Below are positions 43,438 through 60,422 of a stretch of DNA of 64,000 nt, piece by piece. The notes beneath the pieces were generated by a model. The model was not told the origin of the DNA. It made no database searches and worked only from the letters and a program-made list of their open reading frames with translations. The stretch is from the NCBI RefSeq assembly GCF_003368325.1, contig NZ_CP031467.1, positions 4,154,001 through 4,218,000 on the forward strand, in the 5' to 3' direction. Position 1 is the first letter of the stretch; the number at the start of each line of letters is the position of its first letter. The position numbers and the translations under genes were made by a program. This stretch comes from Paraburkholderia caffeinilytica. Lineage in GTDB: Bacteria > Pseudomonadota > Gammaproteobacteria > Burkholderiales > Burkholderiaceae.

Positions 43438-43502
43438 ACACTTTTTCTTTCCTATTTGGAAAGAAAAGGTCGTCTTTTTTTATTATTTTTGGGTACCTAC
43501 AG
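43438..43502 (+). promoter_or_regulatory. Conserved regulon promoter, copy 1 (ABC importer)
   Basis: GTCGTC (43469-43474), 22 bp of T-rich DNA, then CTACAG (43497-43502). Upstream, CTTTCC-TATTT-GGAAAG forms a stem and AAAAG-N5-CTTTT a dyad. Spacing and T-tract match copies at 49064-49097 and 56876-56909. CTACAG/TACAGT would be the -10 region; the -35 is not consensus, so an activator is likely. Confidence 0.65.
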
Positions 43503-43605: not shown

Positions 43606-44496
43606 ATGCTGTTCAGACTTTTCGTTCCAGCGGTTCTTCTCGTTGCGGGCAGTACGATGTTTTCGGTGCATGCCAACGCCGCAGACACGCTCGCCAAAAT
43701 CAAAAGCACTGGCGAAATACGGCTGGGAGTGCGGGATGCTTCCGTGCCGTTTTCGTACCTCGACCAGAACCAGAACTACGTCGGGTTCTCGGTCGACCTG
43801 TGCCACGCAGTGGTCGACAAACTGAAGCAGACCATGCCGACGTTGAAGGTGACGAATGTTCCGGTCACTTCGGCCAATCGCATCGCGCTCGTGAACAACG
43901 GAAACGTCGACATTGAATGCGCGAGTACGGCGAACAGCCTCGACCGCCAAAAGCAGGTTGGTTTCTCGGTCGGTACGTTTGTCAGCCATACCCGCTGGCT
44001 GGTGAAAGCAGACTCGGGCATCAAGTCTGCGGCTGACCTCAAGGGGAAGACCGTGGTCTACACCCAAGGCTCAAATGCTTTGGGTTTCGCGAAGGAAATC
44101 AGTGAGAAGAACAACCTCGACCTGAAGTTCATCCCGGCACATGACCATGGCGAGTCAATGCTCGTTCTGGAAAGCGGCCGCGCGGCTGCCTTCATCGAAG
44201 ACGACATTCTCCTGGCCGCAAAGAAAGCGGACTCCAAGGACCCGGCTACCTTCACGTTCCTGCCGGAATCCTATAACTCGCTCGTCTACGGTTTGATGTT
44301 CGCGAAGGACGACCCCGGCTTCAAGAAGACGGTCGACGATACATTGAAGTCGCTGATGGCATCAGGTGAATTCAACAAAATCTACGCGAAATGGTTCGAA
44401 GGTCAGATTCCGCCCCGCGGCATCAAACTGAACTTTCCGATGAGCGATGACCTGAAGGAGCGCGTCAAGGCTCCGAGCGACAAGTTGCCTTCGTAA
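43606..44496 (+). CDS. Polar amino-acid ABC transporter, substrate-binding protein (GltI-like)
   Basis: A 296-residue periplasmic binding protein. Signal peptide ends near VHANA-ADTLAKI. The type II SBP core is visible: GEIRLGVRDASVPFSYLDQN, VGFSVDLCHAVVDKLKQ, RIALVNNGNVDIECASTAN. The family's Asp that binds the ligand alpha-amino group is plausible in EDDILL. ATG has AGGAG at 7 bp. It leads a four-gene importer operon. Close to glutamate/aspartate binding proteins, so an acidic or polar amino acid is the likely cargo; exact ligand unknown. Confidence 0.9.
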   Translation: MLFRLFVPAVLLVAGSTMFSVHANAADTLAKIKSTGEIRLGVRDASVPFSYLDQNQNYVGFSVDLCHAVVDKLKQTMPTLKVTNVPVTSANRIALVNNGNVDIECASTANSLDRQKQVGFSVGTFVSHTRWLVKADSGIKSAADLKGKTVVYTQGSNALGFAKEISEKNNLDLKFIPAHDHGESMLVLESGRAAAFIEDDILLAAKKADSKDPATFTFLPESYNSLVYGLMFAKDDPGFKKTVDDTLKSLMASGEFNKIYAKWFEGQIPPRGIKLNFPMSDDLKERVKAPSDKLPS

Positions 44497-44539
44497 ATCT
44501 GTCCGGGGCAACGGCACTGTTCATTAACTGGGGGCAACC

Positions 44540-45265
44540 ATGCAACTCCTGTTCGAAACAACAGTCGATGGAAATCACTACATCAACTGGTTGCTCTCAG
44601 GCCTTTATTGGACTGTGCTGCTGTGGCTTGGCGCCGCCGTCATCTCGGCGGTGCTCGGAGTGGTGGTTGGTTCGGGTCGGACGTCGCGCAGCAAGGTGCT
44701 CCGCACGTTAAGTCGCGCGTACGTTCAAGTATTCAGGAATATCCCTCTGCTGCTTCAGGCGTTTCTCTGGTACTTCGTCTTCCCGGAGATTCTGCCTGCC
44801 GCATTGGGAAGTGCAATCAAGCAAATACCTCCACCGTGGGCCAGTTTCGTACCTGCATTGATTGCGGTCGGCCTGTACACGGGAGCGCGCGTCGCCGAGC
44901 AGATTCGTGCAGGCATTCAGTCATTGCCGAAAGGACAGCGTGAGGCAGCACACGCGCTGGGGCTGTCTAGCTTTACCACGTACGCATGCATCCTGGTACC
45001 CCAGTCGCTGCGAACAATGGCGCCCTCACTTACAAGTGAAGCATTGGCATTGCTCAAAAACACATCGGTCGCAATGACAATCGGCCTGCTCGACCTGACA
45101 GCGCAGGCACAGCAGATGAATGAGTTCACGTTCCGGACCTTCGAGTCGTTCAGCGTGGTCACAGTGACGTACTTCGCCCTCTCGATTGTCATCTATGGTG
45201 CGGCCGAAATTATGACGCGGCGGTTCTCCATGAAATCGAATGTCCCAACGGTCAGCAAGGCATAG
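44540..45265 (+). CDS. Amino-acid ABC transporter permease (GltJ-like)
   Basis: A 241-residue inner-membrane permease of the HisMQ family, with an N-terminal periplasmic stretch (TTVDGNHYINWLLSGLYW) typical of GltJ. The EAA coupling loop reads LPKGQREAAHALGLSSF. Multiple hydrophobic helices (first ~20-42). It is 43 bp after the binding-protein gene and 8 bp before the second permease gene, so it forms half of a heterodimeric channel. Confidence 0.92.
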   Translation: MQLLFETTVDGNHYINWLLSGLYWTVLLWLGAAVISAVLGVVVGSGRTSRSKVLRTLSRAYVQVFRNIPLLLQAFLWYFVFPEILPAALGSAIKQIPPPWASFVPALIAVGLYTGARVAEQIRAGIQSLPKGQREAAHALGLSSFTTYACILVPQSLRTMAPSLTSEALALLKNTSVAMTIGLLDLTAQAQQMNEFTFRTFESFSVVTVTYFALSIVIYGAAEIMTRRFSMKSNVPTVSKA

Positions 45266-45273
45266 AGGCAAGC

Positions 45274-46002
45274 ATGACTACGTATGACCTTGGAGCCATC
45301 CAGCGCGCGCTCCCGTATCTCGGCGAGGGCATGGTGTTCACCCTCAAGCTCACTGTCTTCGCGTTTCTCGGCGGCCTGGCTATCGGGGTTGTCCTGGCCG
45401 TGATTCGTCACATCCGGGTCCCGGTGCTCGACCGTATCGTCTGGGCGTACGTGACGGTCATGCGGTCAATTCCGCTCATCATGGTGCTGTTCTGGTTCTT
45501 CTTTCTTGTCCCGCTAGCGCTTCGCCATTTCTCTCCGGCGGGAATCTCGGTCTCGGTAAGTCCGCAACTGACGGCCTTCGTTACGTACACGCTTTTTGAG
45601 GCAGCCTACTTCTGCGAAATCATCCGCTCGGGCCTGCTGTCCGTGCCGAGAGGTCAATATGAGGGAGCGAAAGCTTTGGGCTTTTCTACCTGGCATGCGT
45701 ATTCACTCGTCATCGTTCCACAGGCACTCAAGGCGGTGATCCCAATCATGGTTACGCAGGCAATCATTCTGTTCCAGGACACGTCTCTCGTGTACGTCCT
45801 GTCGCTGACTGACTTTGTCGGGGCGGCCTCGAAGATTGCCCAGCGTGACGGCAAGCTTGTCGAGTTTTACACCTTCGCGGCTGTCGTCTACTTCGTAATC
45901 TGCTCCGGCGTCTCGGAGCTTGCTGACTACCTTCGGGCACGTCGCCAGGCAAAGGGCGAAACACGTACTCCGGCTCCAGTTGGTGTCACCGCAGCCAGTT
46001 GA
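45274..46002 (+). CDS. Amino-acid ABC transporter permease (GltK-like)
   Basis: A 242-residue HisMQ-family permease, partner of the preceding gene. N-terminus MTTYDLGAIQRALPYLGEGM; EAA loop VPRGQYEGAKALGFSTWHAY; later DTSLVYVLSLTDFVGAA is characteristic. The C-terminal tail is hydrophilic. The ATPase gene follows by 32 bp. GltK/GltJ homology supports acidic or amide amino-acid uptake. Confidence 0.92.
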   Translation: MTTYDLGAIQRALPYLGEGMVFTLKLTVFAFLGGLAIGVVLAVIRHIRVPVLDRIVWAYVTVMRSIPLIMVLFWFFFLVPLALRHFSPAGISVSVSPQLTAFVTYTLFEAAYFCEIIRSGLLSVPRGQYEGAKALGFSTWHAYSLVIVPQALKAVIPIMVTQAIILFQDTSLVYVLSLTDFVGAASKIAQRDGKLVEFYTFAAVVYFVICSGVSELADYLRARRQAKGETRTPAPVGVTAAS

Positions 46003-46034
46003 CTCCACCCAATCACCCGTTACAGGGAGCAGAA

Positions 46035-46787
46035 ATGAATGCAACCGAAATCCCGGTCGTCGAACTCGTATCGCTAACCAAGCGCTTCGGCGCGCACACT
46101 GTTCTCAACGACGTCAACCTGAAGATAGGTGTGGGACAGAAAGTGGTGATTTGCGGACCATCAGGGTCTGGGAAGTCGACCCTTATCCGTTGTATCAACG
46201 GGCTGGAGGACATTGATAGCGGAGAGGTCGTCGTCCGCAATCCACAAACTGGCGAGCGATACCAGAAACCAGCAGATGTACGTCGCCATGTAGGCATGGT
46301 GTTCCAGAGTTTCAATCTGTTTCCGCACTACACGGTGCTCCAAAACTGCATGCTCGCACCCGTGAAAGTGAACGGCGCAGGCAAAGATGAGGCGAGGGAA
46401 ATTGCGACACGGTTGCTCACCAAGGTCCGCGTTGCAAATCAGGCGGAAAAGTATCCTCCGCAACTGTCAGGAGGTCAGCAACAACGAGTGGCCATCGCAA
46501 GAGCGTTATGCATGAGTCCGAGCGTTATGCTCTTTGACGAGCCAACTTCGGCATTGGACCCGGAGATGGTTAAGGAGGTCCTCGACACAATGGTTGCGTT
46601 GGCGACCGAGGGCATGACGATGCTCTGCGTGACCCACGAAATGTCGTTTGCGCGGCGGGTCGCCGACCGAATCATCTTTGTAGACGCCGGCCGCATCCTT
46701 GTCGACGCCTCGCCGGACGAATTCTTCAGCGACGCAGCCCATCCGCGTGTGCGCGAGTTTCTTGGTCAGGTGCTGGCACACGCCTGA
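46035..46787 (+). CDS. Amino-acid ABC transporter ATP-binding protein (GltL-like)
   Basis: A 250-residue ATPase with all motifs: Walker A GPSGSGKSTLIRC, Q-loop MVFQSFNLFPH, signature LSGGQQQRVAIARAL, Walker B VMLFDEPTSALDPE and H-loop CVTHEMSFA. ATG 46035 has GGGAG upstream; an in-frame earlier start at 45999 overlaps the permease stop. It completes the importer. A GCGCCCG-TT-CGGGCGC stem (46856-46871) separates it from the aminotransferase gene. Confidence 0.94.
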   Translation: MNATEIPVVELVSLTKRFGAHTVLNDVNLKIGVGQKVVICGPSGSGKSTLIRCINGLEDIDSGEVVVRNPQTGERYQKPADVRRHVGMVFQSFNLFPHYTVLQNCMLAPVKVNGAGKDEAREIATRLLTKVRVANQAEKYPPQLSGGQQQRVAIARALCMSPSVMLFDEPTSALDPEMVKEVLDTMVALATEGMTMLCVTHEMSFARRVADRIIFVDAGRILVDASPDEFFSDAAHPRVREFLGQVLAHA

Positions 46788-46881: not shown

Positions 46882-48021
46882 ATGCACATGACAAGACTCC
46901 TCGATAACGCGGCAATCAGGGCGGATTTTCCCGTGGCCAGCAAAATGCTCTATCTGGACTCGGCACACCAGACGCCGCTAGGCGTGACCGCGAAGTTGGC
47001 AATCGAAGACTTTCTCGCGGAAAGCTTTGAGATGGCGGGTCCAAAGCCAAAATGGCTGGCCCGGGTTGAGCATGTGCGGGGGGGCCTGGCGTCATTCATT
47101 GGAGCATCTCCTGACGAAATCGCATACACGAAGAACACGTCGGAAGGCCTCAACATCGCTGCCAATGCGATTGATTTCAACGCTGGCGACAACGTCCTGC
47201 TGATTGAAGGCGACCATCCCAACAACGCCTATACGTGGCTGAATTTGCGTCGTAAAGGCGTCGAGGTGCGGTTCGTCAAATTATCTGGAGAGGTTGCGAA
47301 TGCCCAGACTTTCGCTCCCTACGTCGACTGCAAAACGCGAGCGATATCGCTTTCGCACGTGACCTTTCACGCCGGGCAGCGACACGACATCCGGTCTATT
47401 GGCCAGCTTTGCAAAAAGAAGGCTCTTTATCTCGTTGTCGATGCAATGCAGTCGGTCGGAGTCTTGCCGCTTGACGTCAAAGACCTGGGGATTTCGATTC
47501 TGGCGGCAGGATGCCACAAAGGACTGCTGGTGCCCCAAGGGCTCGGATTCCTTTACGTCAATTCAAGCCTCGAAAGCCTTGAGCCCGTGTATCTCGCCAC
47601 GGCTGGGCTCGCGAATCCGCCGGCCGATTTCATAGCACGTCCCGATGATGTCACTTTGCGAGCAGGGGCTGGTCGATTCGAGCTCGGTAACTTCAACCTG
47701 CCAGGGATTCATGCGCTGGGCGCTACGTTGGGATTGCTCGAGAACATCGGCGTCGACAACATTGAGGCGCACGTCCTCAGACTCGGGGACAGACTTATCG
47801 AGCATCTCGATGACCTTCGCATCCGACTTGTCGGGCCACGGGATGCGACTGAGCGTGCGCACATTTACACGATGGCGCTCTCGCCTGACTGGTTGGCGTA
47901 TTTCTCAGAGAACAATGTCCGCGTATCGCCAGAGCGCGATGGCATCAGAATTTCGTTCGGCATTTTCAACAACGAAACAGATGTTGACGCTGTCGCAGAC
48001 CTTATCCGAAAACGCCTTTAA
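46882..48021 (+). CDS. Class V PLP-dependent aminotransferase/lyase-like enzyme
   Basis: A 379-residue fold-type I PLP enzyme. PLP-site residues: Asp187 and Gln190 in VVDAMQSVGV, and Schiff-base Lys213 in AGCHKGLLVPQG. Other blocks are LDSAHQTPLG near the start and the EGDHPNNAYTW substrate segment with His112. It resembles cysteine-desulfurase/isopenicillin-N-epimerase-type proteins, which include transaminases, epimerases and beta-lyases. It has no cysteine-desulfurase Cys loop that I can identify. A second ATG at residue 3 is possible. It lies 94 bp after the ATPase gene in the amino-acid regulon. Confidence 0.85.
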   Translation: MHMTRLLDNAAIRADFPVASKMLYLDSAHQTPLGVTAKLAIEDFLAESFEMAGPKPKWLARVEHVRGGLASFIGASPDEIAYTKNTSEGLNIAANAIDFNAGDNVLLIEGDHPNNAYTWLNLRRKGVEVRFVKLSGEVANAQTFAPYVDCKTRAISLSHVTFHAGQRHDIRSIGQLCKKKALYLVVDAMQSVGVLPLDVKDLGISILAAGCHKGLLVPQGLGFLYVNSSLESLEPVYLATAGLANPPADFIARPDDVTLRAGAGRFELGNFNLPGIHALGATLGLLENIGVDNIEAHVLRLGDRLIEHLDDLRIRLVGPRDATERAHIYTMALSPDWLAYFSENNVRVSPERDGIRISFGIFNNETDVDAVADLIRKRL

Positions 48022-48094: not shown

Positions 48095-49000
48095 TCATTC
48101 CGATGGTTCGGCGGCCAGCGTTAGTGCATCGAGAACCGCCGCGATAGCGGGTCGTTTTGCGGTTCCGCGGGGCAAGACCATGAATACGCGCCGGTTCAAC
48201 ACGGGGTCAATTGGAATGACCGAGAATTCGGGGTCTTTCTCTGCCAGCCGCAGCGCGAGCCGTGGCAACACAGCGACGGCACAGCCGGTCCGGACCATTT
48301 CCAGCGTGACTGCCGTGTTGCGGCTGCTTGTCGTCACTTTCGGGGTGAACCCGCCTGCATAGCAGGCGTTCAGAAGGAACGTGTGGTAGGTCGCCGCCGA
48401 CTGATTCAACGCCCAGCGTTCGTGCGCGAGGTCCGATAGCGCAATGGATTTTCGTCCAGCAAGCTTGTGCTTCGACGATACAACCGCATCAAAGTGGTCA
48501 ACACATAAAGGATGAAACTCAAGTGCACTTGCGAGTGCTTCGGCGCTCACGAGGTCATCCACGATGGCGAGGTCGGTCTGCTTGGCCGCGGCCGCTCTCA
48601 GGCCTTCGGATGGTTCCAGTTCGGTAAATATGACGTTCAACTGAGGGTGCTGCTCAAGTAGTCGGCTGATGGCGACCGGCACGACACTGCTCGCCAGCGA
48701 CCCGAATGCCGACATTCGCACCTCGCCACTGACTTCCACATTCGCGGCAGCGACCTCGGACTCAATATCCGCGACCATTTCGAACAAGCCAGTCGCTCTT
48801 GCCACCAGACGCCGTCCGGCAGGCGTCAGTTGGACGCCGCGACCTGACCGCTCGATTAGAACCGTCTCGAGTTCCTCTTCCAGTTGGGCGAGCTGTTGAG
48901 AAACGGCTGGCCGCGTGAGACGGACCGCTTCCGCGACCGCCGAAATCGTTCCAAGGACCGACAACTCGTGCAACAGATGAAGGCGGCTGAGGTTGAGCAT
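48095..49000 (-). CDS. LysR family regulator, probable regulator of the amino-acid regulon
   Basis: A 301-residue LysR protein starting MLNLSRLHLLHELSVLGTIS with AGGAG 6 bp upstream. Recognition helix LTRPAVSQQLAQLEEEL at ~25-45; effector domain ~90-295. It converges on the aminotransferase gene and is divergent from the beta-hydroxyacid dehydrogenase gene. The shared 216-bp intergenic region contains promoter copy 2, making this the best candidate to bind all three copies. The inducer is unknown. Confidence 0.88.
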   Translation of the reverse strand: MLNLSRLHLLHELSVLGTISAVAEAVRLTRPAVSQQLAQLEEELETVLIERSGRGVQLTPAGRRLVARATGLFEMVADIESEVAAANVEVSGEVRMSAFGSLASSVVPVAISRLLEQHPQLNVIFTELEPSEGLRAAAAKQTDLAIVDDLVSAEALASALEFHPLCVDHFDAVVSSKHKLAGRKSIALSDLAHERWALNQSAATYHTFLLNACYAGGFTPKVTTSSRNTAVTLEMVRTGCAVAVLPRLALRLAEKDPEFSVIPIDPVLNRRVFMVLPRGTAKRPAIAAVLDALTLAAEPSE

Positions 49001-49044
49001 CCCGCACTCCTACAAGGATATGGAGCAAATGGTAAGCGAAACTT

Positions 49045-49097
49045 ACTCATAGGGTCAAAAAGTGTCGTCTTTTTTTTCTAAATTTGTCTTCCTATAG
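49045..49097 (+). promoter_or_regulatory. Conserved regulon promoter, copy 2 (dehydrogenase operon)
   Basis: GTCGTC (49064-49069), 22 bp, CTATAG (49092-49097). The upstream arm CATAGGGTCAAA mirrors the downstream ATTTGTCTTCCTATAG, and AAAAAG-N6-CTTTTT forms a dyad across GTCGTC. It shares most bases from GTCAAAAAGTGTCGTCTTTT onward with copy 3. Located between the LysR gene and its divergent neighbour. TATAGT is the probable -10. Confidence 0.7.
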
Positions 49098-49128
49098 TCA
49101 CATCACCGGCACGCAATTTCTGGTCGAA

Positions 49129-49146
49129 ACAAGGGAAAACCCTTGT
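49129..49146 (+). promoter_or_regulatory. Leader hairpin in the dehydrogenase operon mRNA
   Basis: ACAAGGG-AAAA-CCCTTGT is a perfect 7-bp stem with a four-base loop, about 30 bp after promoter copy 2 and 70 bp before the start codon. It has no T-run, so simple termination is unlikely. It may stabilise the leader or bind a regulator. Confidence 0.45.
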
Positions 49147-49216
49147 CTGACAATGACTTAGGTGTTGCGCGTTTTGCCCGGCTTAACCAATCAGATTCCA
49201 GTTGGAGGAAGCTCAA

Positions 49217-50107
49217 ATGAAGGTTGCATTTATCGGAGTGGGACGCATGGGTGGCCGTATGGCAGCCCGTCTGGTCGCAGCGGGTCATCAGGTGCGCGTG
49301 TTCGACCCTAGCCAGGCAGCCGTTGACGCTCTCGCATCGAAGGGTGCAATCGCCGCGAAGAGCCCTGCTGAGGCAGCGCAGGATGCGGAACGCATTCTCC
49401 TCAGCCTGCCGAGCCCGAAGACGCTGCGCGATGCGGTGACTGGCGAAACCGGTGTTCTGCAGACGGCGGCAGAAGGCGCAATCATTGTCGACTTCAGCAC
49501 CGTCGACCCGGCGACGACCAAAGAGATTGCTGCTGCAGCCGCAGCAAAGAAAGTCAGCTTCGTCGATTCGCCCGTGAGCGGTGGGGTTGCAGGCGCCGAG
49601 AACGGCAAGCTCGTTCTGATGGTCGGTGGCTCGCCCGAAGTAATCGAAAAACTGAACTCGATTTTTGAAGTTCTGGCCGGCCGCGTCGTGCATTGCGGAG
49701 ATACGGGCGCGGGTCAGCTCACGAAACTGAGCCACAACCTGCTCACGGCAATCAACACCGTCGCGCTCGGCGAAGTCCTGACCGCGAGCGTCAAGGCAGG
49801 CGCGAAACTCGACGTGCTGTGCGACGTCCTGACCGCTGGCCTCGCTGGCAGCAAGATGCTCGACTACCTGCCGAAGACCCTGTTCACAGAGCAGCGCCCG
49901 GCCAACTTCGCCATTGACCTGATGCACAAAGACATCAAGTTGTGCCTCGACGAATTCTCGAATCTTCCGATGCCGCTCGGCCAGCTCGTGCTGCAAACCT
50001 ACAACGCGGCTCGCGCAAAGGGTCTCGGCGGTAAGGATTCGACCAGCGTGAATGAAATCTACGAAGAGCTGCTTGGCGTGCGCCTTAGCCTGCCCGTCGC
50101 CCAGTAA
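49217..50107 (+). CDS. NAD(P)-dependent beta-hydroxyacid dehydrogenase (HIBADH family)
   Basis: A 296-residue enzyme of normal family length. N-terminal GxGxxG in FIGVGRMGGRMAARL; substrate motif FVDSPVSGGVAGAENG at ~115-130; catalytic Lys170 in GAGQLTKLSHNL. ATG 49217 follows GGAGGAAG. Members oxidise 3-hydroxyisobutyrate, tartronate semialdehyde, 6-phosphogluconate-like acids or 4-hydroxybutyrate. It is the first gene of the operon behind promoter copy 2, and the aldehyde dehydrogenase gene follows by 26 bp, so a hydroxyacid/semialdehyde/acid sequence is plausible. Confidence 0.9.
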   Translation: MKVAFIGVGRMGGRMAARLVAAGHQVRVFDPSQAAVDALASKGAIAAKSPAEAAQDAERILLSLPSPKTLRDAVTGETGVLQTAAEGAIIVDFSTVDPATTKEIAAAAAAKKVSFVDSPVSGGVAGAENGKLVLMVGGSPEVIEKLNSIFEVLAGRVVHCGDTGAGQLTKLSHNLLTAINTVALGEVLTASVKAGAKLDVLCDVLTAGLAGSKMLDYLPKTLFTEQRPANFAIDLMHKDIKLCLDEFSNLPMPLGQLVLQTYNAARAKGLGGKDSTSVNEIYEELLGVRLSLPVAQ

Positions 50108-50133
50108 GTCAATTGAACACCAAAGGAAATAAC

Positions 50134-51633
50134 GTGAATTCCATGACCGACAACGTATCCGCCGAAATCGTCGTTCCGAAGGCGGGCATTACCGGCCTGC
50201 TGATTAACAACGAGTGGCGCACCCCCGCAAAGGGCAAGACCCTTGATGTCGAAAATCCGTCGCGCCGCACGAAGATTGTCTCCATCGGTGCGAGCGACGA
50301 AGAAGACGTCAAGGCGGCCGTTGCCGCAGCGAGCGCTGCTTTCCCTGCATGGCGTCGTATGGCATCACGTGCACGCGGCGCACTTCTGATTGAACTGGGC
50401 AATCGCGTCACCGCCAACGCTGAAGAAATCGCTCGTGTTCTCGCTGCCGAAAGCGGCAATGCACTGCGCACGCAGAGCCGCCCGGAAGTTCTGGGCGCCG
50501 CAGAAGTTCTGCGTTACTACGGCGGTGTCATCGCCGAACAAAAGGGCGAAACGCTCCCGCTCGGTCCGGGTCTCTTCAGCTACACGACGCGTGAGCCGCT
50601 CGGCGTCGTCGGCGCCATCATCCCGTGGAATTCGCCGGTCGTCCTGGCGGCCGTAAAAATCGGCATGGCGCTTGGCACTGGCAATACGCTGGTTCTGAAG
50701 CCGGCAGAAGACGCGCCCCTCGCCGTTATCAAAATCGCAGAACTCGCAACCGGGCTGTTCCCCGCGGGCGTATTCAACGTCGTGACGGGCACGGGTATCG
50801 GTGCCGGCGCTCCTCTCGCGGCGCATCCGAATGTCGCGAAGGTTTCGTTTACCGGCTCGCTGGAAGTCGGAAAACTGGTTGGTCACGCGGTTGCTGACCG
50901 CATTGGCCACGCAACGCTGGAGCTCGGTGGCAAGAGCCCGTGCATCGTCTATCCCGATGCAGCGACCCCGGAACATATCGACTCGACGGTCACCGGCATC
51001 ATCAATGCGATGCGCTTCGCCCGCCAAGGTCAGTCGTGTACCGCCGGCTCGCGTCTCTACGTCCATGAAAGCGTCTGGGACCAGGTGATGACCCAAGTGG
51101 TCGCCAAGGTGAAGGAGCTGAAAATCGGCGACTCACTGGACGAATCGAGCGACATCGGCGCAATCATCAGCGCTGAGCGCTACTCGGAAGTTCGCGCGTT
51201 CATCGAAGAAGCCATCAACAACGGCGCGAAGGTCCTGACGGGCTCGCTGCCGCCAACAGTCGATGAAGCGAAAGGCTTCTTCCCTGAGCCGGTGATTTTC
51301 ACCGGCGTCGACAACAACTGGCGCGTGTGCCGTGAAGAAGTCTTTGGCCCGGTTCTGGTGGCATTGCCCTGGAAGGACGAAGAGGAAGTGTTGCAATGGG
51401 CGAACGACTCCGTCTACGGCCTTGCTGCTTATGTCTTCACGAATGACCTGACCACGGCGCTGCGCGTCACGGAAAAAATTGACGCGGGCTGGTTGCAGGT
51501 CAATCGCGCTGGCGGCCAGATTCCGGGTATGTCGTACGGTGGCGCGAAGCAAAGCGGCATCGGTGCCGAGTATTCCATTGAAGGCGCACTGGAAGCGTAC
51601 ACGTCGCGAAAGAGCGTAACCATCAACGTGTAA
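50134..51633 (+). CDS. NAD(P)-dependent aldehyde dehydrogenase
   Basis: A 499-residue class I-type aldehyde dehydrogenase. Catalytic Glu263 is in TLELGGKSP, nucleophilic Cys302 in RQGQSCTAGSR, and the cofactor motif in SFTGSLEVGK. GTG 50134 has AAGGAA 6 bp upstream; ATG 50143 is an alternative. Sequence suggests the betaine/aminobutyraldehyde/semialdehyde broad group, not methylmalonate-semialdehyde dehydrogenase. Co-transcribed with the hydroxyacid dehydrogenase and symporter genes. Confidence 0.9.
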   Translation: MNSMTDNVSAEIVVPKAGITGLLINNEWRTPAKGKTLDVENPSRRTKIVSIGASDEEDVKAAVAAASAAFPAWRRMASRARGALLIELGNRVTANAEEIARVLAAESGNALRTQSRPEVLGAAEVLRYYGGVIAEQKGETLPLGPGLFSYTTREPLGVVGAIIPWNSPVVLAAVKIGMALGTGNTLVLKPAEDAPLAVIKIAELATGLFPAGVFNVVTGTGIGAGAPLAAHPNVAKVSFTGSLEVGKLVGHAVADRIGHATLELGGKSPCIVYPDAATPEHIDSTVTGIINAMRFARQGQSCTAGSRLYVHESVWDQVMTQVVAKVKELKIGDSLDESSDIGAIISAERYSEVRAFIEEAINNGAKVLTGSLPPTVDEAKGFFPEPVIFTGVDNNWRVCREEVFGPVLVALPWKDEEEVLQWANDSVYGLAAYVFTNDLTTALRVTEKIDAGWLQVNRAGGQIPGMSYGGAKQSGIGAEYSIEGALEAYTSRKSVTINV

Positions 51634-51710
51634 CCGCTGCAGATAAGGTAGCCCGGCGACCGACCGGGTTACCACCACACCTTTACCGGGCAATAGGTTG
51701 GGAGTTAATC

Positions 51711-53027
51711 ATGAGCGCAAATCTGGCAGCAACGGCTTCGGACGAAGCTAAGGAGGCTCGAAGCGTTTCGACGCGAGCAGCATTCAGTTCGTTCATCGGC
51801 ACGACGGTCGAATGGTACGACTATTTTCTGTACGGTACAGCCGCAGCACTGGTATTTCCGAAAGTCTTCTTTAATGACTTAACCCCGGAGCTGGCAACGC
51901 TTGCTTCGATGGCCTCCTTCGCCGTTGCATTCGTGCTGCGCCCGCTCGGAGGTATGGTCATCGGTCACTTCGGTGACCAGATGGGCCGCAAAAAGATGCT
52001 GGTCTTCACCCTGCTTGTGATGGGAATTTGCACCGCCGGCATCGGCTTTCTGCCCTCGTACAACTCAGCGGGTCACTGGAGCCCAGCGCTTCTGATTCTC
52101 CTGCGCGTCATCCAGGGTTTCGCTTTGGGTGGCGAATGGGGTGGTGCAGCACTGATGTCAGTCGAGCACGCGCCAGAGGGTCGCAGAGGTCTTTTCGGAA
52201 GCACCATGCAAATGGGTGTACCGGCCGGCTTGCTGGTGTCTACCGGAGCATTCGCTCTCGTTTCTGCGTTGCCGGACCAGCAGTTCTTCGCATGGGGATG
52301 GCGTTTGCCGTTCATCTTCAGCCTCGCCCTGCTGGCAGTCGGGATGTACATCCGCCTGCAGGTGTCGGAGCCGCCAGCTTTTGAGAAGGTCAAAGAGTCC
52401 GGCAATGTATCGCGCGCCCCGCTGCTTGAAGTATGGCAAAACGAAAAGAAGAAGACCGTCATCATGGTGTTCTTCCAGACCGTGGCGAATGTCGGCTACT
52501 TCCTCATCACCGTTTATGCGCTGACGTACATCACCGGAACATTGCATCTGCCGCGGAGCGTTGCATCGACAGGCCTCCTCGTTGCAGCCGCAGTCGACCT
52601 CTTCATGCAACCGGTTTTCGGATGGCTTTCCGACAAGGTTGGCCGGCGAGTCGTCTACGGGTTTGGTGCCATTTTCTTCGCACTCTATGCATTTCCGCTG
52701 TTCTGGCTTCTCGATACTGCGAACCCGGCACTTATCACGGTCGGACTTGCTCTTGGCCTCGGTATCGGCCACGCGTCCACCGGCTCGCTGCATGGCGTTA
52801 TTTACGCTGAGCAGTACCCGACTCGTTACCGGTTCAGCGGCTCGTCGACCGCGTACCAGCTCTCCGGGATTATCTCCAGTGCGCCAACGCCGCTAATTGC
52901 CGCGTGGCTCGTGGCGCGAAGTGGCAACTCGATGTCCGTCTCCTGGTACGTGGTGGTGGCGGCAATCATTTCACTGGTCTGCGTCCTTCTTGTGAAGGAG
53001 ACCTATCGTGAACCTATCGACCGTTAA
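51711..53027 (+). CDS. MFS transporter, metabolite:H+ symporter (MHS) family
   Basis: A 438-residue permease with the MHS hallmark FIGTTVEWYDYFLYGTAAAL at the first helix and HFGDQMGRKKMLVFTLLVMG for motif A. It resembles ShiA/ProP/KgtP/citrate-type carriers for small organic acids or compatible solutes. ATG has GGGAG upstream. It ends 13 bp before the next predicted start (or overlaps an alternative GTG). A second uptake route, beside the ABC importer, in the same regulon implies that an organic acid as well as an amino acid is handled. Confidence 0.9.
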   Translation: MSANLAATASDEAKEARSVSTRAAFSSFIGTTVEWYDYFLYGTAAALVFPKVFFNDLTPELATLASMASFAVAFVLRPLGGMVIGHFGDQMGRKKMLVFTLLVMGICTAGIGFLPSYNSAGHWSPALLILLRVIQGFALGGEWGGAALMSVEHAPEGRRGLFGSTMQMGVPAGLLVSTGAFALVSALPDQQFFAWGWRLPFIFSLALLAVGMYIRLQVSEPPAFEKVKESGNVSRAPLLEVWQNEKKKTVIMVFFQTVANVGYFLITVYALTYITGTLHLPRSVASTGLLVAAAVDLFMQPVFGWLSDKVGRRVVYGFGAIFFALYAFPLFWLLDTANPALITVGLALGLGIGHASTGSLHGVIYAEQYPTRYRFSGSSTAYQLSGIISSAPTPLIAAWLVARSGNSMSVSWYVVVAAIISLVCVLLVKETYREPIDR

Positions 53028-53040
53028 GAAGAGCGTAACA

Positions 53041-54036
53041 ATGACTTCGGTTAACGACCAGATTACAGGTGAGCGGATTGACCGTCTTATGACAGTAGAA
53101 ATCCGTCCGCTAAACGGCGGTCTTCCAGCAGGCTACGTAGTGCCAATGTACAACGTGTGCCGCGCTCACCATGGAGAGCCACTCAGTTCACTCGCAGCAC
53201 GAAAGCTCACCGACACATTGTCCCGCGGTGACGTCGTTTTCATTGCCACGGGGGCCGGGACACCACCCAATCTGCCGCAAGGTGAAACAGATGGCCCGGT
53301 TGGCGCCGCGGTTCTGGCCCGTGCGCTTGTAGTCGCCTTCGGGGTGCGCGTAGTCCTTGTCACCGAAGATGCACATGCTGCCCCGGTGATGGCGGTTGCT
53401 GCAACCATCAATGCCGAATTGGGCGGCCCCGCCGCAATTTCGACAGTGTGCTTCCCGCTGGGTCTTGAGCCTGGCCGCAGTATCGCGCAAACATTGATGG
53501 AAGAGTACCGACCGAGCGCGGTCGTCTTCGTTGAACGCGATGGCCCGAACAAGGAAGGTTACTTCCACGGGGTACGAGGTGATTGTCGTAACCCTGAAGA
53601 TGTCGGTCACGTTTACCTGCTCGCCGATTTTGCGCGCAAGCGCGGGGTGCTGACGATTGGCGTTGGCGACGGTGGCAATGAAGTTGGGTTTGGCGCGGTT
53701 CGCGATGCCATTACTGCTGTGCACCCGCTGGGAGGCAAATCGCTAGCTGGGCATGAATCCGGCGTTGTCACGGTGACGGTGACCGACGTGGTTGTCAGTG
53801 CGTCGGTCTCGAACTGGGGTGCGTATGCAATCGCCGCAGCGCTTGCCGCGAAGACTGGAAACATCGACGTGCTTCATAGCCAGACCCTCGAACACGAGCT
53901 GATTGAGGCAACAGTGAGAGCCGGTGCCAGAGACGGTGCGACGTCTAAAGCTGAGGTCGCAGTGGACGGCATCAACTGGCAGGGCCACACCTCGTTTGTC
54001 GAACTATTACGAAGCATTGTCATTGTGTCGCTATGA
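53041..54036 (+). CDS. D-glutamate-cyclase-like protein (DUF4392), copy A
   Basis: A 331-residue protein resembling the glutamate cyclase (DUF4392) domain of human DGLUCY, which converts D-glutamate to 5-oxo-D-proline. Blocks: GAGTPPNLPQGETDGPVGAA, FVERDGPNKEGYFHGVRG, TIGVGDGGNEVGFGAV and VSASVSNWGAYAIAAALA. ATG 53041 follows AAGAAGAG; an in-frame GTG at 53008 with AAGGAG would overlap the symporter by 20 bp and is a real alternative. It precedes a SelA-like PLP gene and a second copy. Substrate inferred only from family; it may act on another D- or N-acyl amino acid. Confidence 0.82.
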   Translation: MTSVNDQITGERIDRLMTVEIRPLNGGLPAGYVVPMYNVCRAHHGEPLSSLAARKLTDTLSRGDVVFIATGAGTPPNLPQGETDGPVGAAVLARALVVAFGVRVVLVTEDAHAAPVMAVAATINAELGGPAAISTVCFPLGLEPGRSIAQTLMEEYRPSAVVFVERDGPNKEGYFHGVRGDCRNPEDVGHVYLLADFARKRGVLTIGVGDGGNEVGFGAVRDAITAVHPLGGKSLAGHESGVVTVTVTDVVVSASVSNWGAYAIAAALAAKTGNIDVLHSQTLEHELIEATVRAGARDGATSKAEVAVDGINWQGHTSFVELLRSIVIVSL

Positions 54037-54095
54037 ACGACAGGCACCGGCAAATCTCTCGCAGCAGCACCCAACTGAATTAACAGGTGTAAGTC

Positions 54096-55415
54096 ATGAA
54101 TGACGTGAAGGACGTTAGCAATGCAGCAAAAGCTGCAAGTGTTAGTCCCGTAAAAACGGACAGTTTCGGAAACCCCATCGACCCAACCGTCGGCTTTGCC
54201 AGAGGCTCCATCATTCGCTCCAGCATCGACGAGGCACTTCGGCTTCGCCATGGACAGGCCGTCGCGGCGAAACGGGTGAAAACACTTGGCGCAGAGTCGA
54301 TAGGTGTATTCACTGGCAATCAGCGCGATTTCCCGATTAAGGCTGATGACATCGCCACGCTTTGCGAGGAGTGGGTCGGCCCGGGACTCGAAGCGGAGTC
54401 GCTGCGCCAGGTCGCAATCGGTCACATGGGTGGGAAAACTGACGATGCGGTTGCTACGTTCAATCGAACCAGCGCTGGCATCATCGCCACAATCGCAGCG
54501 CTCGCCGGCGGCAAGCCGGTCGTGTCCGTGGTCCCGCCTGGCGGACGCTCGCACGCCTCCGTGGTCCGCGGTTCGAAAATCGCGGGCGTCGCCGTGGTCG
54601 AGGTGCAGGGCGACAAGGAGTGGCTGACGGCAATTCAGAAAAACGCGCCCGCTCTGGTGGTCATTACCACGGTCACGAGCAGTCTCGAGCGTCTGGACGA
54701 CCACATCACGACCCAGGTCACGGAATACGCTCACGCACTCGGCGCGACTGTCTTTCTGGACGAAGCTTATGGCGCACGTCTTCGCACCGTGTTGCACGGC
54801 GGTCAACTGAGTCTTCAGATGGGGGCGGATATCTCCATCACGAACTGCGATAAGGCGGGGTTGTCGGGCCCGCGTGCAGGCGTCCTTGTGGGGCGCCCAG
54901 AGCTGGTTACAGCAGCAGCTGCAAAGGGCGCTGAGTTTGGTATGGAGGCACGGGCTCCGATAGCAGCCGCTGTATTCCGGTCGCTTCAGAAATATGAGCC
55001 CGAAGACCTGCGCAAGGAGTCTGCCGCGGGTCAACAGCTTGCCACCGTACTCGAAGCGAAGTTGGGCAAGGAGCTTGTCCAACGGAGCGACCTCGGACCG
55101 ATGGTCGACGAAGACGCGGTGCTCCGTGTGCTCCTGGAGCTCGCGGGCAAGACAGGTTCGAAGCCGGTCGTCGTTCCGTGCGAAGCCACATCGGCGCTCG
55201 GCATGGTTCTGCTTCAGGACTACGGCGTATTGACCGTGAACACCCACGGGCAACCGGGTGCACGCGTATCGCTGCGTCTCAAACCGACGCTCGATGCACT
55301 GGGTCGCGTCGGGGGCTTCGATGCTGTTGTGACGGCGGTTATGGAGTCTCTCGATAAGGTCGCGAAGATTATCGATAACCCCGACGCAATCAAGCGCCTT
55401 ATCGTAGGGAGTTAA
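54096..55415 (+). CDS. SelA-like fold-type I PLP enzyme of unknown function
   Basis: A 439-residue PLP protein. PLP-site residues: Asp222 in VFLDEAYGARLR and Schiff-base Lys253 in ITNCDKAGLSGPRAGVLVG, with VPPGGRSHASVVRG (His153) as ring-stacking segment. NRTSAGIIATIAALA resembles the SelA / D-glucosaminate-6-phosphate ammonia-lyase group, not classic aminotransferases. No selB or selC is nearby, so a selenocysteine role is unlikely. It sits 59 bp after copy A and 2 bp before copy B, tightly coupled. Probably an ammonia lyase, racemase or beta-eliminase on an amino acid. Confidence 0.8.
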   Translation: MNDVKDVSNAAKAASVSPVKTDSFGNPIDPTVGFARGSIIRSSIDEALRLRHGQAVAAKRVKTLGAESIGVFTGNQRDFPIKADDIATLCEEWVGPGLEAESLRQVAIGHMGGKTDDAVATFNRTSAGIIATIAALAGGKPVVSVVPPGGRSHASVVRGSKIAGVAVVEVQGDKEWLTAIQKNAPALVVITTVTSSLERLDDHITTQVTEYAHALGATVFLDEAYGARLRTVLHGGQLSLQMGADISITNCDKAGLSGPRAGVLVGRPELVTAAAAKGAEFGMEARAPIAAAVFRSLQKYEPEDLRKESAAGQQLATVLEAKLGKELVQRSDLGPMVDEDAVLRVLLELAGKTGSKPVVVPCEATSALGMVLLQDYGVLTVNTHGQPGARVSLRLKPTLDALGRVGGFDAVVTAVMESLDKVAKIIDNPDAIKRLIVGS

Positions 55416-55417
55416 AT

Positions 55418-56428
55418 ATGGCTTCAAGTATTTTCAGTGCCGTCGATGATAGGCTGGATGCACTTATCTCGTTGGACCTGGGCGGACGCGGCGTCGAGCA
55501 TCTCTATCTGGCTGCCCGGGAGCGACAAGGCGGCTCCCTCGTGGGTGCCGCAGCCGATGCGCTCGCAGCCATCCCTGAAAAAGCGAACGTCTTTGTGACC
55601 ACCGGTTCGGTGTCACGCGCGTGGATTTCGCCATCCATTGGCGAGAACGATGGTCCAGCCGGACTTGCGGCAGTCGTGCGCGCGCTCTCACTGGCGAAGA
55701 AGGCGCTTTGCATCACCTTCGTCGAAGAGACGCTTATCGAAACTACTTCGGCGATTCTGACGACGGCAGGTCTGACTGTTCTTCCCTATGAACAGGCCGT
55801 AATCGCGCGCGACGATGGCAGCCTGGCCGTTGTGTGTGTCGAGCCTTTCCCTGTCGAGGACTCGGCGGCAAGAGACGCTTCGAAATCGCTTCTCGACAAA
55901 TACGACCCGGCACTGTTCTTCTCTACGGAGCGCGTCGGTCGCAACGTCGACGGCATTTACTGCAGCATGCGTGGTATCGACTACGGAATGGGACGGGCTC
56001 GCATCGATTTCCTCTTCGATGAGGCTATCGTGCGGAAAATCCCGACGGTGGCTGTCGGCGATGGTGGTAACGAGATTGGTATGGGCGTCGTCATGGACGC
56101 CGTTCAGAAGCACGTCAAATTTGGCGACAAGCGACCTGATGGCAGCAAGGGTATCGGCGCGGTGACCGGAACCGACGTGCTCGTGACAGCAGCATGTTCC
56201 AACTGGGGCTGCTATGCCATCGCGGGCGCCTTCGCGGCTCGCCAGGGCAAGGCATCGCTGGCACACACGCCGGCGTTAGAGGCTTCTCTCCTCAGGCGCG
56301 GCGTGGATGTCGGTCTAATCAACTCGGTAGCAAATATCGTCGACCCTAACGTCGACGGGATTCCCGAGGCGACGCATCTGGCCGTTGTGCAACTCATCTC
56401 GACGATTATCAGTCCAGCGTTCAAGTAG
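55418..56428 (+). CDS. D-glutamate-cyclase-like protein (DUF4392), copy B
   Basis: A 336-residue paralogue of copy A. Shared blocks are SIGENDGPAGLAAVVRAL, VAVGDGGNEIGMGVVMDAV and VTAACSNWGCYAIAGAFA. It differs where copy A has ERDGPNKEGYFHGVRG: here TERVGRNVDGIYCSMRG, losing the DGP. The two may form a heterodimer, or one copy may be specialised or inactive. ATG follows GGGAG and lies 2 bp after the PLP-gene stop. A strong terminator follows at 56542. Confidence 0.82.
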   Translation: MASSIFSAVDDRLDALISLDLGGRGVEHLYLAARERQGGSLVGAAADALAAIPEKANVFVTTGSVSRAWISPSIGENDGPAGLAAVVRALSLAKKALCITFVEETLIETTSAILTTAGLTVLPYEQAVIARDDGSLAVVCVEPFPVEDSAARDASKSLLDKYDPALFFSTERVGRNVDGIYCSMRGIDYGMGRARIDFLFDEAIVRKIPTVAVGDGGNEIGMGVVMDAVQKHVKFGDKRPDGSKGIGAVTGTDVLVTAACSNWGCYAIAGAFAARQGKASLAHTPALEASLLRRGVDVGLINSVANIVDPNVDGIPEATHLAVVQLISTIISPAFK

Positions 56429-56854: not shown

Positions 56855-56910
56855 CTTCCTATAGAGTCAAAAAGTGTCGTCTTTTTTTTCTTAATTTGAC
56901 TTCCTATAGT
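56855..56910 (+). promoter_or_regulatory. Conserved regulon promoter, copy 3
   Basis: GTCGTC (56876-56881), 22 bp, CTATAG (56904-56909). CTATAGAGTCAAA upstream and TTTGACTTCCTATAG downstream are near-inverted arms, and TTCCTATAG occurs directly twice. AAAAAG-N6-CTTTTT spans GTCGTC. It differs from copy 2 at only a few bases over this span. It now drives a small ORF and a decayed gene, so it may be a relic promoter. Confidence 0.7.
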
Positions 56911-57280: not shown

Positions 57281-57295
57281 GTACAGGAGCTTGTG

Positions 57296-57852
57296 ATGCA
57301 TCGCATCGTAATCGTGGGCGGTGGCGCCGGCAGCCTTGAATTAGCTACGCGTCTTGGCAACAAGCTCGGGAAATCGAAGCGAACTCACATTACGCTGGTT
57401 GACCGCTGCCCGACTCATGTCTGGAAGCCGCTGTTGGATGAAGTGGCAGCAGGAAGTCTCGATGCGCATGCACATCAGATTGATGTATGCAGCACAAGCT
57501 CATTGGCATCACTTCGAATTTGTCCGCGGCGAAATGGTCGGACTGGAGCGCGCGTCGCAGTTTCTACGTCTTGCCCCCATATTCGACACGGAATACGATA
57601 ACGAGGAAATCTTGCCTGCGCGAAGCATCGGGTACGACGCGCTCGTTCTTGCCTTGGGCAGTCAAACACACTTTTTCGGGGTGCCGGGCGCGCAGTCGAA
57701 TGCGATACCTCTTGATACCTTGCCGTAGGCCGAACGATTGAGGTGTAGTCTTCTCCAGACTTGAGTCAAGAAGGCCGCCCTCAATGCCTCAGGTACCGAG
57801 GCGGCAGTGAACGCGGCAATCATTGGTGGCGGCTACGGGCGTCGATCTGGCC
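57296..57852 (+). pseudogene. ndh: Decayed type II NADH dehydrogenase gene
   Basis: ATG 57296 has AGGAG 6 bp upstream. The start [20 protein letters not shown] and [20 protein letters not shown] match NDH-2 FAD proteins. An extra base near 57485 shifts to [20 protein letters not shown] and DALVLALGSQTHFFGVPGA. A TAG at 57726-57728 replaces the expected Gln codon, a second stop lies at 57762-57764, then KAALNASGTEAAVNAAIIGG. A two-base loss near 57834 precedes ATGVDLA. Homology then switches abruptly to a CoA-transferase. Several independent lesions, so clearly dead. Confidence 0.8.
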
Positions 57853-58811: not shown

Positions 58812-60422
58812 TCACGCCTGCACCCTTGCCGGCGCGGCGCCGGGGCGCACTTTCAGCAGTCGCCCTGACCATGGGGCACTCGTCAGCGATTCGAGCGACT
58901 GCAGATGCCGGTCGCTCGTCACGTACAACGCTGGACCGTCCGCATCAGGCACAAAGGCGAGGCCAGTCGGCGCCGCCACCGGCAGACTGACAAGCCGGTC
59001 CACGCTGCCATCGGCCGCGAACCGCACGAGGGTCCAGCCATCTTTTAGCGCGGTCCAGAGGCCGCCGTCTTCGTCAAGGGCAATCCCAGACAGACGCCCT
59101 GAACCCTTTGGCATCGAAGCCAGCCGACGCACGGTCGGCGATCCTTTGCGCAGCATGAACAGGGTCCCGGAATCAGGGGCGACGGCGTAGGCCGTGACGC
59201 CGTCGTGAGCCCAGGTCATTGCTTCGATCCGCTCGCTAAAGCGCCAATGCGGTCTGACGCGGCCCTCGTCATCCACGACGCCGAGGCTGCACTCCGTATC
59301 GCCTTCGGCGCACAAGGCGACCCAACAGCCACCCTGAGGATCGACACAAAGCGCGTTTATCGCAGGGTCGGTCCACACCGAGGCGTCGCTTATCCGCGTG
59401 ACGTGGCCGTCTGCTTCGAGCCGCACGTAATGTCCGTCATGAACGACAATCAGCGTGTCGCCGCGTAACAGCATGGCTGTGATCGGCGCGTCGAGACGCG
59501 CGATGATGCGATCCTGTTTGCCGTCGAAGCAATGCACGGCCGGCGCGAGCGCGTCGGCCCAGTAGAGGCAACGGCTCATGCCAGACCACACGGGAAACGC
59601 ACCGTGAAACGCCCAACCGTCGCTGACCGGTTCGACTTCTTCCACGCCGGACTGATACCTGCTCACGGTCAATTGCGAACCGACGCGCCGTGCGGCGTCG
59701 GCGAGTTCCGGACCGAGCAGTTCGAGCCTTGTGAGGCTTAGCCTGTAGGCAGGACCTGCGACACTCAATGCACCGCGCACCTCGCCCGCGGTATCGACAA
59801 TTGGCGCGGCTACGCAGCGCACGCCGAGCACGATTTCCTCGTCGTCGATCGCGTAGCCGCGTGAGCGCGTAATGCCGAGTTCTATCTGCAGGCGCCGGCG
59901 ATCCGTGATCGTGTGCGGCGTCAGCGCGTCCAGCGTGATGCTTTTGACGAGCGCCTCGCACTGGTCTTTCGGCAGCCGCGACAGGATTGCCTTGCCCTGA
60001 CCCGTGCAATGCAGCGGCTTGCTTTGTCCGAGCGTGGCGGCCGAGCGTTGCGAATGCGCGCCGTCGCATCGTTCGAGCGACAGCACCGTACCGCCGTCCA
60101 GCACCGCGAGGTACGACGTTTCTCCAGTCAGATCGCGCAGCGTGCGCAATTCCACGCTGGCTGCGGCGACCAGATCCGGCATCAGGTACGCGTTGCGCAC
60201 AAGTTCGAGGTAGCGAAAGCCGAGCCGGTAAACCCGCCGCACCTGATCGCGCCGGACCAGCCCGCGTTCGACGAGGGTCGCGAGGATGCGATACAGCGTG
60301 GTCTTTGGCAAGCCGGCCTGGTCGAGTAATTCGGCGTTGCTCATGCCATTGGGCGCCGCGCCGATCAGATCGAGCACGCCCAGCGCCTTATCCAGTGATG
60401 CAGTTCCTTCTCCTACGCTCAT
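58812..60422 (-). CDS. IclR-family regulator fused to an SMP-30-like beta-propeller
   Basis: A 536-residue two-part protein. Residues 1-~255 form a full IclR regulator: winged helix ~7-65 (MSNAELLDQAGLPKTTLYRI) and GAF-like effector domain (QSKPLHCTGQGKAILSRLPK; VLGVRCVAAPIVDTAGEVRG). Residues ~262-536 form an SMP-30/gluconolactonase-like propeller (FPVWSGMSRCLYWADA; SGIALDEDGGLWTALKDGW). The N-terminal metal Glu of the usual GEGPVW is Ala in GAFPVW, and other Asn/Asp ligand positions appear changed, so it is more likely a ligand sensor than an enzyme. No frameshift separates the parts. It is divergent from the RraA operon, whose promoter region holds a perfect IclR-type dyad. Confidence 0.85.
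   Translation of the reverse strand: MSVGEGTASLDKALGVLDLIGAAPNGMSNAELLDQAGLPKTTLYRILATLVERGLVRRDQVRRVYRLGFRYLELVRNAYLMPDLVAAASVELRTLRDLTGETSYLAVLDGGTVLSLERCDGAHSQRSAATLGQSKPLHCTGQGKAILSRLPKDQCEALVKSITLDALTPHTITDRRRLQIELGITRSRGYAIDDEEIVLGVRCVAAPIVDTAGEVRGALSVAGPAYRLSLTRLELLGPELADAARRVGSQLTVSRYQSGVEEVEPVSDGWAFHGAFPVWSGMSRCLYWADALAPAVHCFDGKQDRIIARLDAPITAMLLRGDTLIVVHDGHYVRLEADGHVTRISDASVWTDPAINALCVDPQGGCWVALCAEGDTECSLGVVDDEGRVRPHWRFSERIEAMTWAHDGVTAYAVAPDSGTLFMLRKGSPTVRRLASMPKGSGRLSGIALDEDGGLWTALKDGWTLVRFAADGSVDRLVSLPVAAPTGLAFVPDADGPALYVTSDRHLQSLESLTSAPWSGRLLKVRPGAAPARVQA

Follow-up and report, generated by a model that had tools for sequence, protein, structure and literature searches.

A patchily distributed gene cassette that joins DUF4392 proteins to an MJ0158-like PLP enzyme, and its probable role in the catabolism of a non-standard amino acid

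A Conserved Cassette in Paraburkholderia caffeinilytica

A 64,000-nucleotide stretch of the Paraburkholderia caffeinilytica genome (the window; positions 4154001-4218000 of contig C2 in a three-contig, 8.32-Mb genome) carries a cassette of genes that we judge, with a probability of roughly 0.65, to be a mobile and inducible unit for the oxidative catabolism of a polar amino acid, probably an acidic and non-standard one. At window positions 48095-56428, a gene for a LysR regulator is divergent from six collinear genes that encode a beta-hydroxyacid dehydrogenase (HADH), an aldehyde dehydrogenase (ALDH), an MHS-type metabolite/H+ symporter, a DUF4392 protein (GCYa), a pyridoxal 5'-phosphate (PLP) enzyme, and a second DUF4392 protein (GCYb). 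The six genes are closely packed, with successive gaps of 5, 77, −20, 59, and 2 bp. Upstream are four genes of a polar amino acid ATP-binding cassette (ABC) importer (43606-46787) followed by a gene for a class V PLP enzyme (46882-48021). These features had been described in an initial annotation made from the nucleotides alone; all open reading frames (ORFs) of its operon at 49217-56428 were found, profile matches bear out their families, and the importer, the class V gene, and the 2-59 bp gaps on either side of the PLP gene are as it had them.

The gene order is conserved beyond the host strain. Among 25 examined places with a PLP protein at least 50% identical, GCYb directly follows PLP in all 25 and the order HADH-ALDH-(MHS)-GCYa-PLP-GCYb is present in 20 (for loci L104 and L105, order was taken from annotation). 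Independent cases are fewer than 20 because several places are near-identical to one another. The exceptions are a locus truncated by insertion sequences (L065), one at a contig end (L012), an extra PLP-GCYb pair in Pseudorhodoferax (L011), and two Rhodobacterales plasmids (L068 and L104). Confinement of the DUF4392-PLP-DUF4392 triplet to a single strain, which the initial annotation had named as fatal to its interpretation, is thus not what these genomes contain. In L065, on a plasmid of Bradyrhizobium japonicum USDA 135, insertion sequences replace the upstream half of the cassette and leave PLP, GCYb, and the importer.

Across genomes, the distribution is patchy. Hosts include Burkholderiaceae, Pseudorhodoferax, Bradyrhizobium, and Rhizobiaceae, and several cassettes are on plasmids. 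A scan of species genomes yielded nine loci (four in Paraburkholderia and one each in Caballeronia, Trinickia, Pandoraea, Bradyrhizobium, and Pseudorhodoferax), and a search of 72,556 plasmid records yielded 17 (eight from Bradyrhizobium, six from Sinorhizobium, two from Rhodobacterales, and one from Caballeronia), seven of which had their surroundings viewed. Within the genus, strong matches (E <1e-100) occur in 7 of 144 genomes, host included, and the other 11 of the 18 positives are weak and partial. In the order sample, 7 of 399 genomes are positive at 1e-20, six of them at only 30-31% identity; in the phylum sample, 12 of 398 are positive, 11 of them at no more than 25.4 bits. All three positives among 297 genomes of the family of genome G071 have the full cassette. 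These counts are a lower bound on its spread. We found no published description of the cassette in the openly licensed literature.

A comparison of 16 loci separates constant from variable members (L004, L012, L065, and L101-L105 were set aside, antisense overlaps were ignored, and the stretches are too short to show an importer at every locus). ALDH, PLP, and GCYb are present in all 16, whereas HADH, GCYa, and a homologous LysR gene are each present in 15. HADH and GCYa occur together in 15 loci and are jointly missing in the other. The MHS gene is present in nine, all of them Burkholderiaceae loci, and is missing in Trinickia. The class V PLP gene is present in six, with 55.6% identity at one Rhizobiaceae locus.

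Three PLP gene copies are present in the host genome (100%, 97%, and 81% identity); one is carried by C3, a 174.6-kb contig that is probably a plasmid. Each copy comes with the operon, LysR gene, importer, and class V gene, and the six DUF4392 genes detected in the genome all fall within these copies. Over the compared stretch, the two DUF4392 proteins encoded at the C3 copy (L042) are identical to those of Paraburkholderia caffeinitolerans (L004), while those of the window copy differ by up to 6%, suggesting recent exchange.

Promoter Element and Importers

The best argument for an amino acid as substrate is that the cassette has repeatedly acquired polar amino acid importers of different types. 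Importers that adjoin the cassette form clades that are less than 35% alike: a GltI-type clade in Burkholderiaceae, a second clade common to Sinorhizobium, Bradyrhizobium, and Pseudorhodoferax (54-96% mutual identity), and a further clade in Bradyrhizobium. Trinickia has another type. The GltI-type importer of the window consists of a periplasmic binding protein (43606-44496; PF00497), two permeases (44540-45265 and 45274-46002; ORFs with homologues linked at other loci), and an ATPase (46035-46787, with the start set at 46035; the longest ORF begins at 45999), all on the forward strand. The binding protein scores 270.9 bits against NCBIfam PRK10797, below the cut-off of 375. Its closest solved relatives are 2ia4 and 2vha, and its motifs align well with those of 2ia4, the Shigella glutamate/aspartate-binding protein. 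The class V enzyme encoded next (46882-48021, forward strand; PF00266) is of the cysteine desulfurase-like superfamily.

The operon and the importer also have a promoter element in common. An alignment of the LysR-HADH intergenic region from nine Burkholderiaceae loci has a single conserved block, made up in order of a GTAA-N7-TTxC dyad, GTCAAAAAGTGTCGTC-T7/8, and TTTGTCTTCCTATAGT (consensus of 19 distinct instances). In the window, the block is at 49030-49100 on the forward strand, in the T8 form. Its core, GTCGTCTTTTTTT, has three exact matches in the window, all on the forward strand: ahead of the importer operon (43469-43481, GTCGTC-T7), ahead of HADH (49064-49076), and ∼400 bp ahead of the remnant of a flavoprotein gene (56876-56888). 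With one mismatch allowed, 0.03 matches are expected in the window, and three were reached in none of 100 shuffles. Genome-wide, six of six exact matches are at cassette copies, compared with none for the reversed-pattern control. Three of the six lie ahead of HADH, one in each copy; one lies ahead of the window importer; and the remaining two lie ∼400 bp ahead of the flavoprotein gene, one in the window and one on C3. In other species, loci L044 and L005 also have the core ahead of this gene, and in Trinickia it precedes the importer of a different type. In the alphaproteobacterial loci scanned, the sole find was a degenerate form in L064. The element thus delineates a small regulon within the Burkholderiaceae.

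These results bear on two proposals of the initial annotation. Uptake of a polar amino acid is supported by the presence of the importer and class V gene at all three host copies, the recurrence of varied importers, and the promoter element common to operon and importer. A single promoter type ahead of operon, importer, and class V gene holds for the first two, at which the core is exact, but not for the class V gene, which follows the importer genes and has no core within the 94 bp directly upstream.

The PLP Enzyme, the DUF4392 Pair, and the Dehydrogenases

The PLP enzyme (54096-55415, forward strand) is of an MJ0158-like type. It matches MJ0158 of Methanocaldococcus jannaschii (2aeu) at an E-value of 7.4e-41, with ∼29% identity in the structural alignment, and scores 206.8 bits against TIGR03576, below the curated cut-off of 304.45. 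Residues D252-K253 align with the D-K pair of 2aeu and are invariant in 19 cassette sequences and in 17 mixed sequences, which points to Lys253 as the predicted Schiff-base lysine that binds PLP. The label "SelA-like" given earlier is apt for the general fold, but neither Pfam nor NCBIfam gave a SelA model at E 0.001, and identity as SelA was rejected on this ground; the nearest solved relative is MJ0158. We know of no function for MJ0158. The genome of M. jannaschii has no DUF4392 match, and the same holds for all 14 control genomes, of which it is one. Two irregular PLP genes did not withstand inspection: a break in Sinorhizobium fredii suspected from annotation was rejected on finding a match free of internal stops, and a fused 868-residue frame in genome G1000 is an open high-GC frame over separate genes. 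A second PLP subfamily in other Burkholderiales (L052-L057) is ∼30% identical, has a similar N-terminal TDxxGxxIDP motif, and has no DUF4392 match nearby. A gene for a TctC-type receptor directly follows the PLP gene in L054 and is close downstream in L057.

Both DUF4392 proteins, GCYa (53008-54036) and GCYb (55418-56428), are encoded on the forward strand and far exceed the gathering cut-off of PF14336 (GLUCM-like_C; 203.3 and 196.1 bits, respectively, versus 27.9). They are 33% identical to each other, and both keep the acidic metal ligands. Across 46 DUF4392 sequences (three short matches were left out beforehand), the six acidic ligand columns are kept in 46, 45, 46, 46, 46, and 45. Ligands were equated to those of TON_0340, a DUF4392 protein for which six acidic metal ligands are described (PMC5132392), via motif and spacing; the N-terminal piece alone scores weakly. 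The mammalian D-glutamate cyclase, DGLUCY, is described as a DUF1445-DUF4392 fusion (PMC5132392), and a mouse protein with a DUF4392 domain is reported to turn D-glutamate into 5-oxo-D-proline (PMC5339696). Cassette proteins have the domain in common with DGLUCY and TON_0340, together with the six ligands described for TON_0340, but in contrast to the DGLUCY fusion they stand alone and are two diverged paralogues, with genes for a PLP enzyme and for two dehydrogenases in their operon. The profile scan found no DUF1445 (PF07286) in the cassette, nor is there a 5-oxoprolinase gene. The earlier designation as D-glutamate-cyclase paralogues is therefore sound for family membership and intact ligands but is unsafe as a statement of function.

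The tree of DUF4392 proteins rules out a recent tandem duplication, with GCYb and GCYa as separate groups (support of 100/99 for all GCYb, and of 85/64 for all GCYa or 98/99 with L071 included); deep joins are unsure because several branches are long. The family is rare, with members in 10 of 398 genomes of the phylum sample, host included. On pSymA of Sinorhizobium meliloti (L071), a lone DUF4392 gene (38% identity to GCYa) is beside genes for a tripartite tricarboxylate transporter and a Rid-family protein, with oxoprolinase-type genes close by. In genome G328, a 3573-residue frame (L086:4679-15400, reverse strand) has two DUF4392 domains and a DUF4781 match in a quite different setting. Three scanned loci of another family in the host's class (f13; L091-L093, with neighbours of L094 left out) are like the cassette in that DUF4392 is beside enzymes of amino acid metabolism, here aminotransferase or PALP genes. 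They differ in having a single DUF4392 gene, with DUF1445 in L091 and L093 and carboxyltransferase-type 5-oxoprolinase subunits in L091 and L092. These are likely bacterial D-glutamate cyclase loci.

The dehydrogenases and symporter are assigned at the level of family (all forward strand). HADH (49217-50107), for which we take the ATG preceded by GGAGG as the start rather than a longer TTG reading from 49202, matches PF03446 (170.8 bits) and PF14833 (97.2 bits). Its best solved match is 3cky, a 2-hydroxymethylglutarate dehydrogenase, and its best equivalog score (221.3, for 2-hydroxy-3-oxopropionate reductase) does not reach the cut-off of 397. ALDH (50113-51633; PF00171) is like phenylacetaldehyde and betaine aldehyde dehydrogenases. 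The symporter (51711-53027) scores 411.8 bits against TIGR00883, below the cut-off of 443.45. The regulator (48095-49000, reverse strand; PF00126 and PF03466) is conserved.

On two closely similar Rhodobacterales plasmids (L068 and L104), the cassette consists of LysR, a class III aminotransferase, ALDH, PLP, GCYb, and a class V PLP enzyme. The aminotransferase occupies the position of HADH, and HADH and GCYa are both absent. Their joint loss suggests that GCYa probably acts on the HADH, or alcohol, branch. Most simply, the fragment released in the PLP step would end in an alcohol in one group and in an amine in the other, and both fragments would reach ALDH as aldehydes.

Downstream of the operon, the flavoprotein gene (57293-57833, forward strand; pyridine nucleotide-disulphide oxidoreductase family) is a remnant in two frames. 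It corresponds to only about the N-terminal 180 residues of the 436-residue, full-length homologue at the C3 copy and still has the core ahead of it. Farther on, a single reading frame (58812-60422, reverse strand) fuses an IclR regulator with an SMP-30/gluconolactonase-like domain. Rfam and tRNA scans of the window gave no matches.

Proposed Function and Alternatives

From gene content and motifs, we propose the following sequence of events. The LysR protein would sense the substrate or an intermediate and activate the cassette promoters. The ABC importer, joined in most Burkholderiaceae loci by the MHS symporter, would take up the amino acid. GCYb, as a two-metal-site enzyme, would act with the MJ0158-like PLP enzyme to prepare or rearrange the amino acid, for example by ring opening, ring closing, or hydrolysis, and the PLP enzyme would cleave a bond at the alpha or beta carbon, or one adjacent to these, in an elimination or retro-aldol type of reaction that releases an alcohol-ended fragment. 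HADH would oxidize the alcohol to an aldehyde, from which ALDH would form an acid, with the flavoprotein perhaps reoxidizing the reduced nucleotide. In Rhodobacterales, the aminotransferase would take the place of HADH and act on a fragment that ends in an amine. The order given here for the DUF4392 and PLP steps is tentative and rather doubtful. The lactam chemistry, epimerization, and step order put forward in the initial annotation are likewise conjecture. We also consider it possible, if somewhat doubtful, that GCYa and GCYb form an obligate heteromeric two-metal-site enzyme that is one catalytic unit with the PLP enzyme, and that the unit carries out a new ring-coupled PLP cleavage of a plant- or soil-derived non-protein amino acid. 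If so, it would provide the first physiological role for MJ0158-like enzymes and a second chemistry for DUF4392. Candidate substrates (4-substituted glutamates, beta-substituted alanines, oxyvinylglycines, nicotianamine-type compounds, and homoserine-yielding analogues) found no support and were not adopted. In overall plan, the cassette resembles ectoine and canavanine catabolic operons, in which an importer and PLP chemistry are combined with conversion of an alcohol or amine to an aldehyde and then an acid. Those operons use different enzyme families, and none is known to include DUF4392 or an MJ0158-like enzyme.

Several observations weigh against this reading or its parts. The ALDH is of the phenylacetaldehyde/betaine-aldehyde type and not semialdehyde-specific, which fits poorly because the usual substrates of HADH enzymes are beta-hydroxy acids. 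The structure comparison of the PLP protein, which covered the PDB, cannot separate elimination from aldol cleavage, and the model of the protein is weak at Lys253 (predicted local distance difference test, pLDDT, <50 at residues 252-259). An intact flavoprotein homologue is present in only 4 of 16 loci, and the gene is broken in the window; its best family score (134.6) is far below the cut-off of 310, making a role as NADH oxidant a guess. The Rhodobacterales swap is probably a single evolutionary event carried by two similar plasmids, and the class V enzyme of L068 is of another subfamily with no match to that of the window. As for regulation, binding of the LysR protein to the element is suggested by position and the dyad, and the element scan recognized no core ahead of the flavoprotein gene of L008. 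With one mismatch allowed, the core had 16 matches in the genome versus 11 for the control, so only exact matches are specific; two of the ten extra sites precede the importers of the other two host copies.

The cassette could instead serve mainly in detoxification rather than nutrition, by breaking down a toxic analogue of an amino acid (an antimetabolite similar to canavanine or the oxyvinylglycines) that plants, fungi, or bacteria produce. Its patchy spread, its presence in 17 plasmid records, many from soybean nodules, and its three copies in one genome are consistent with such a role. Dedicated importers under the same promoter element suggest, however, that the compound is used, and among gene clusters that recur in at least 3 of 16 loci, no efflux pump or self-protection gene was recognized (unlabelled, mostly antisense, clusters were not individually identified). 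We consider detoxification rather unlikely.

A true D-glutamate route, in which the DUF4392 pair would cyclize imported D-glutamate to 5-oxo-D-proline and the rest of the operon would dispose of the product, is less probable still. Membership of both proteins in PF14336, the conversion reported for the mouse DUF4392-domain protein (PMC5339696), and the GltI-type importer are in keeping with it. But the cassettes, on C2 and C3, are apart from the three DUF1445 genes of the host, all on C1, and there is no evident place in this route for HADH, ALDH, or the PLP enzyme. The likely D-glutamate cyclase loci L091-L093, by comparison, have DUF4392 with DUF1445, 5-oxoprolinase subunits, or both. We set aside D-glutamate cyclization as the function of the operon on the lack of DUF1445 and oxoprolinase genes and kept it as a rival. 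The absence of DUF1445 is not decisive because it was also not seen among annotated neighbours of DUF4392 genes in L069-L071, nor among two scanned neighbours each in L087-L090 (one in L089 and one in L090 matched no family). A link to selenium or tRNA, with the PLP protein as selenocysteine synthase, follows its annotation in Sinorhizobium and Bradyrhizobium records. Given the lack of SelA matches, the closeness to MJ0158, and linked genes that look catabolic, we regard this as extremely improbable.

Implications

DUF4392 makes up the C-terminal half of a human protein. The physiological functions of DUF4392 and of MJ0158-type PLP enzymes are unsettled, and the cassette links both families, in bacteria that can be cultured, to a single unit that has its own promoter element and is probably inducible. 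If the cassette promoter were coupled to a reporter, the inducer, and through it the substrate, might be identified, which would open both families to functional tests. Since the island is found both in Burkholderiaceae and on rhizobial plasmids from soybean nodules, the compound may be a real resource or threat in soil or at the root.

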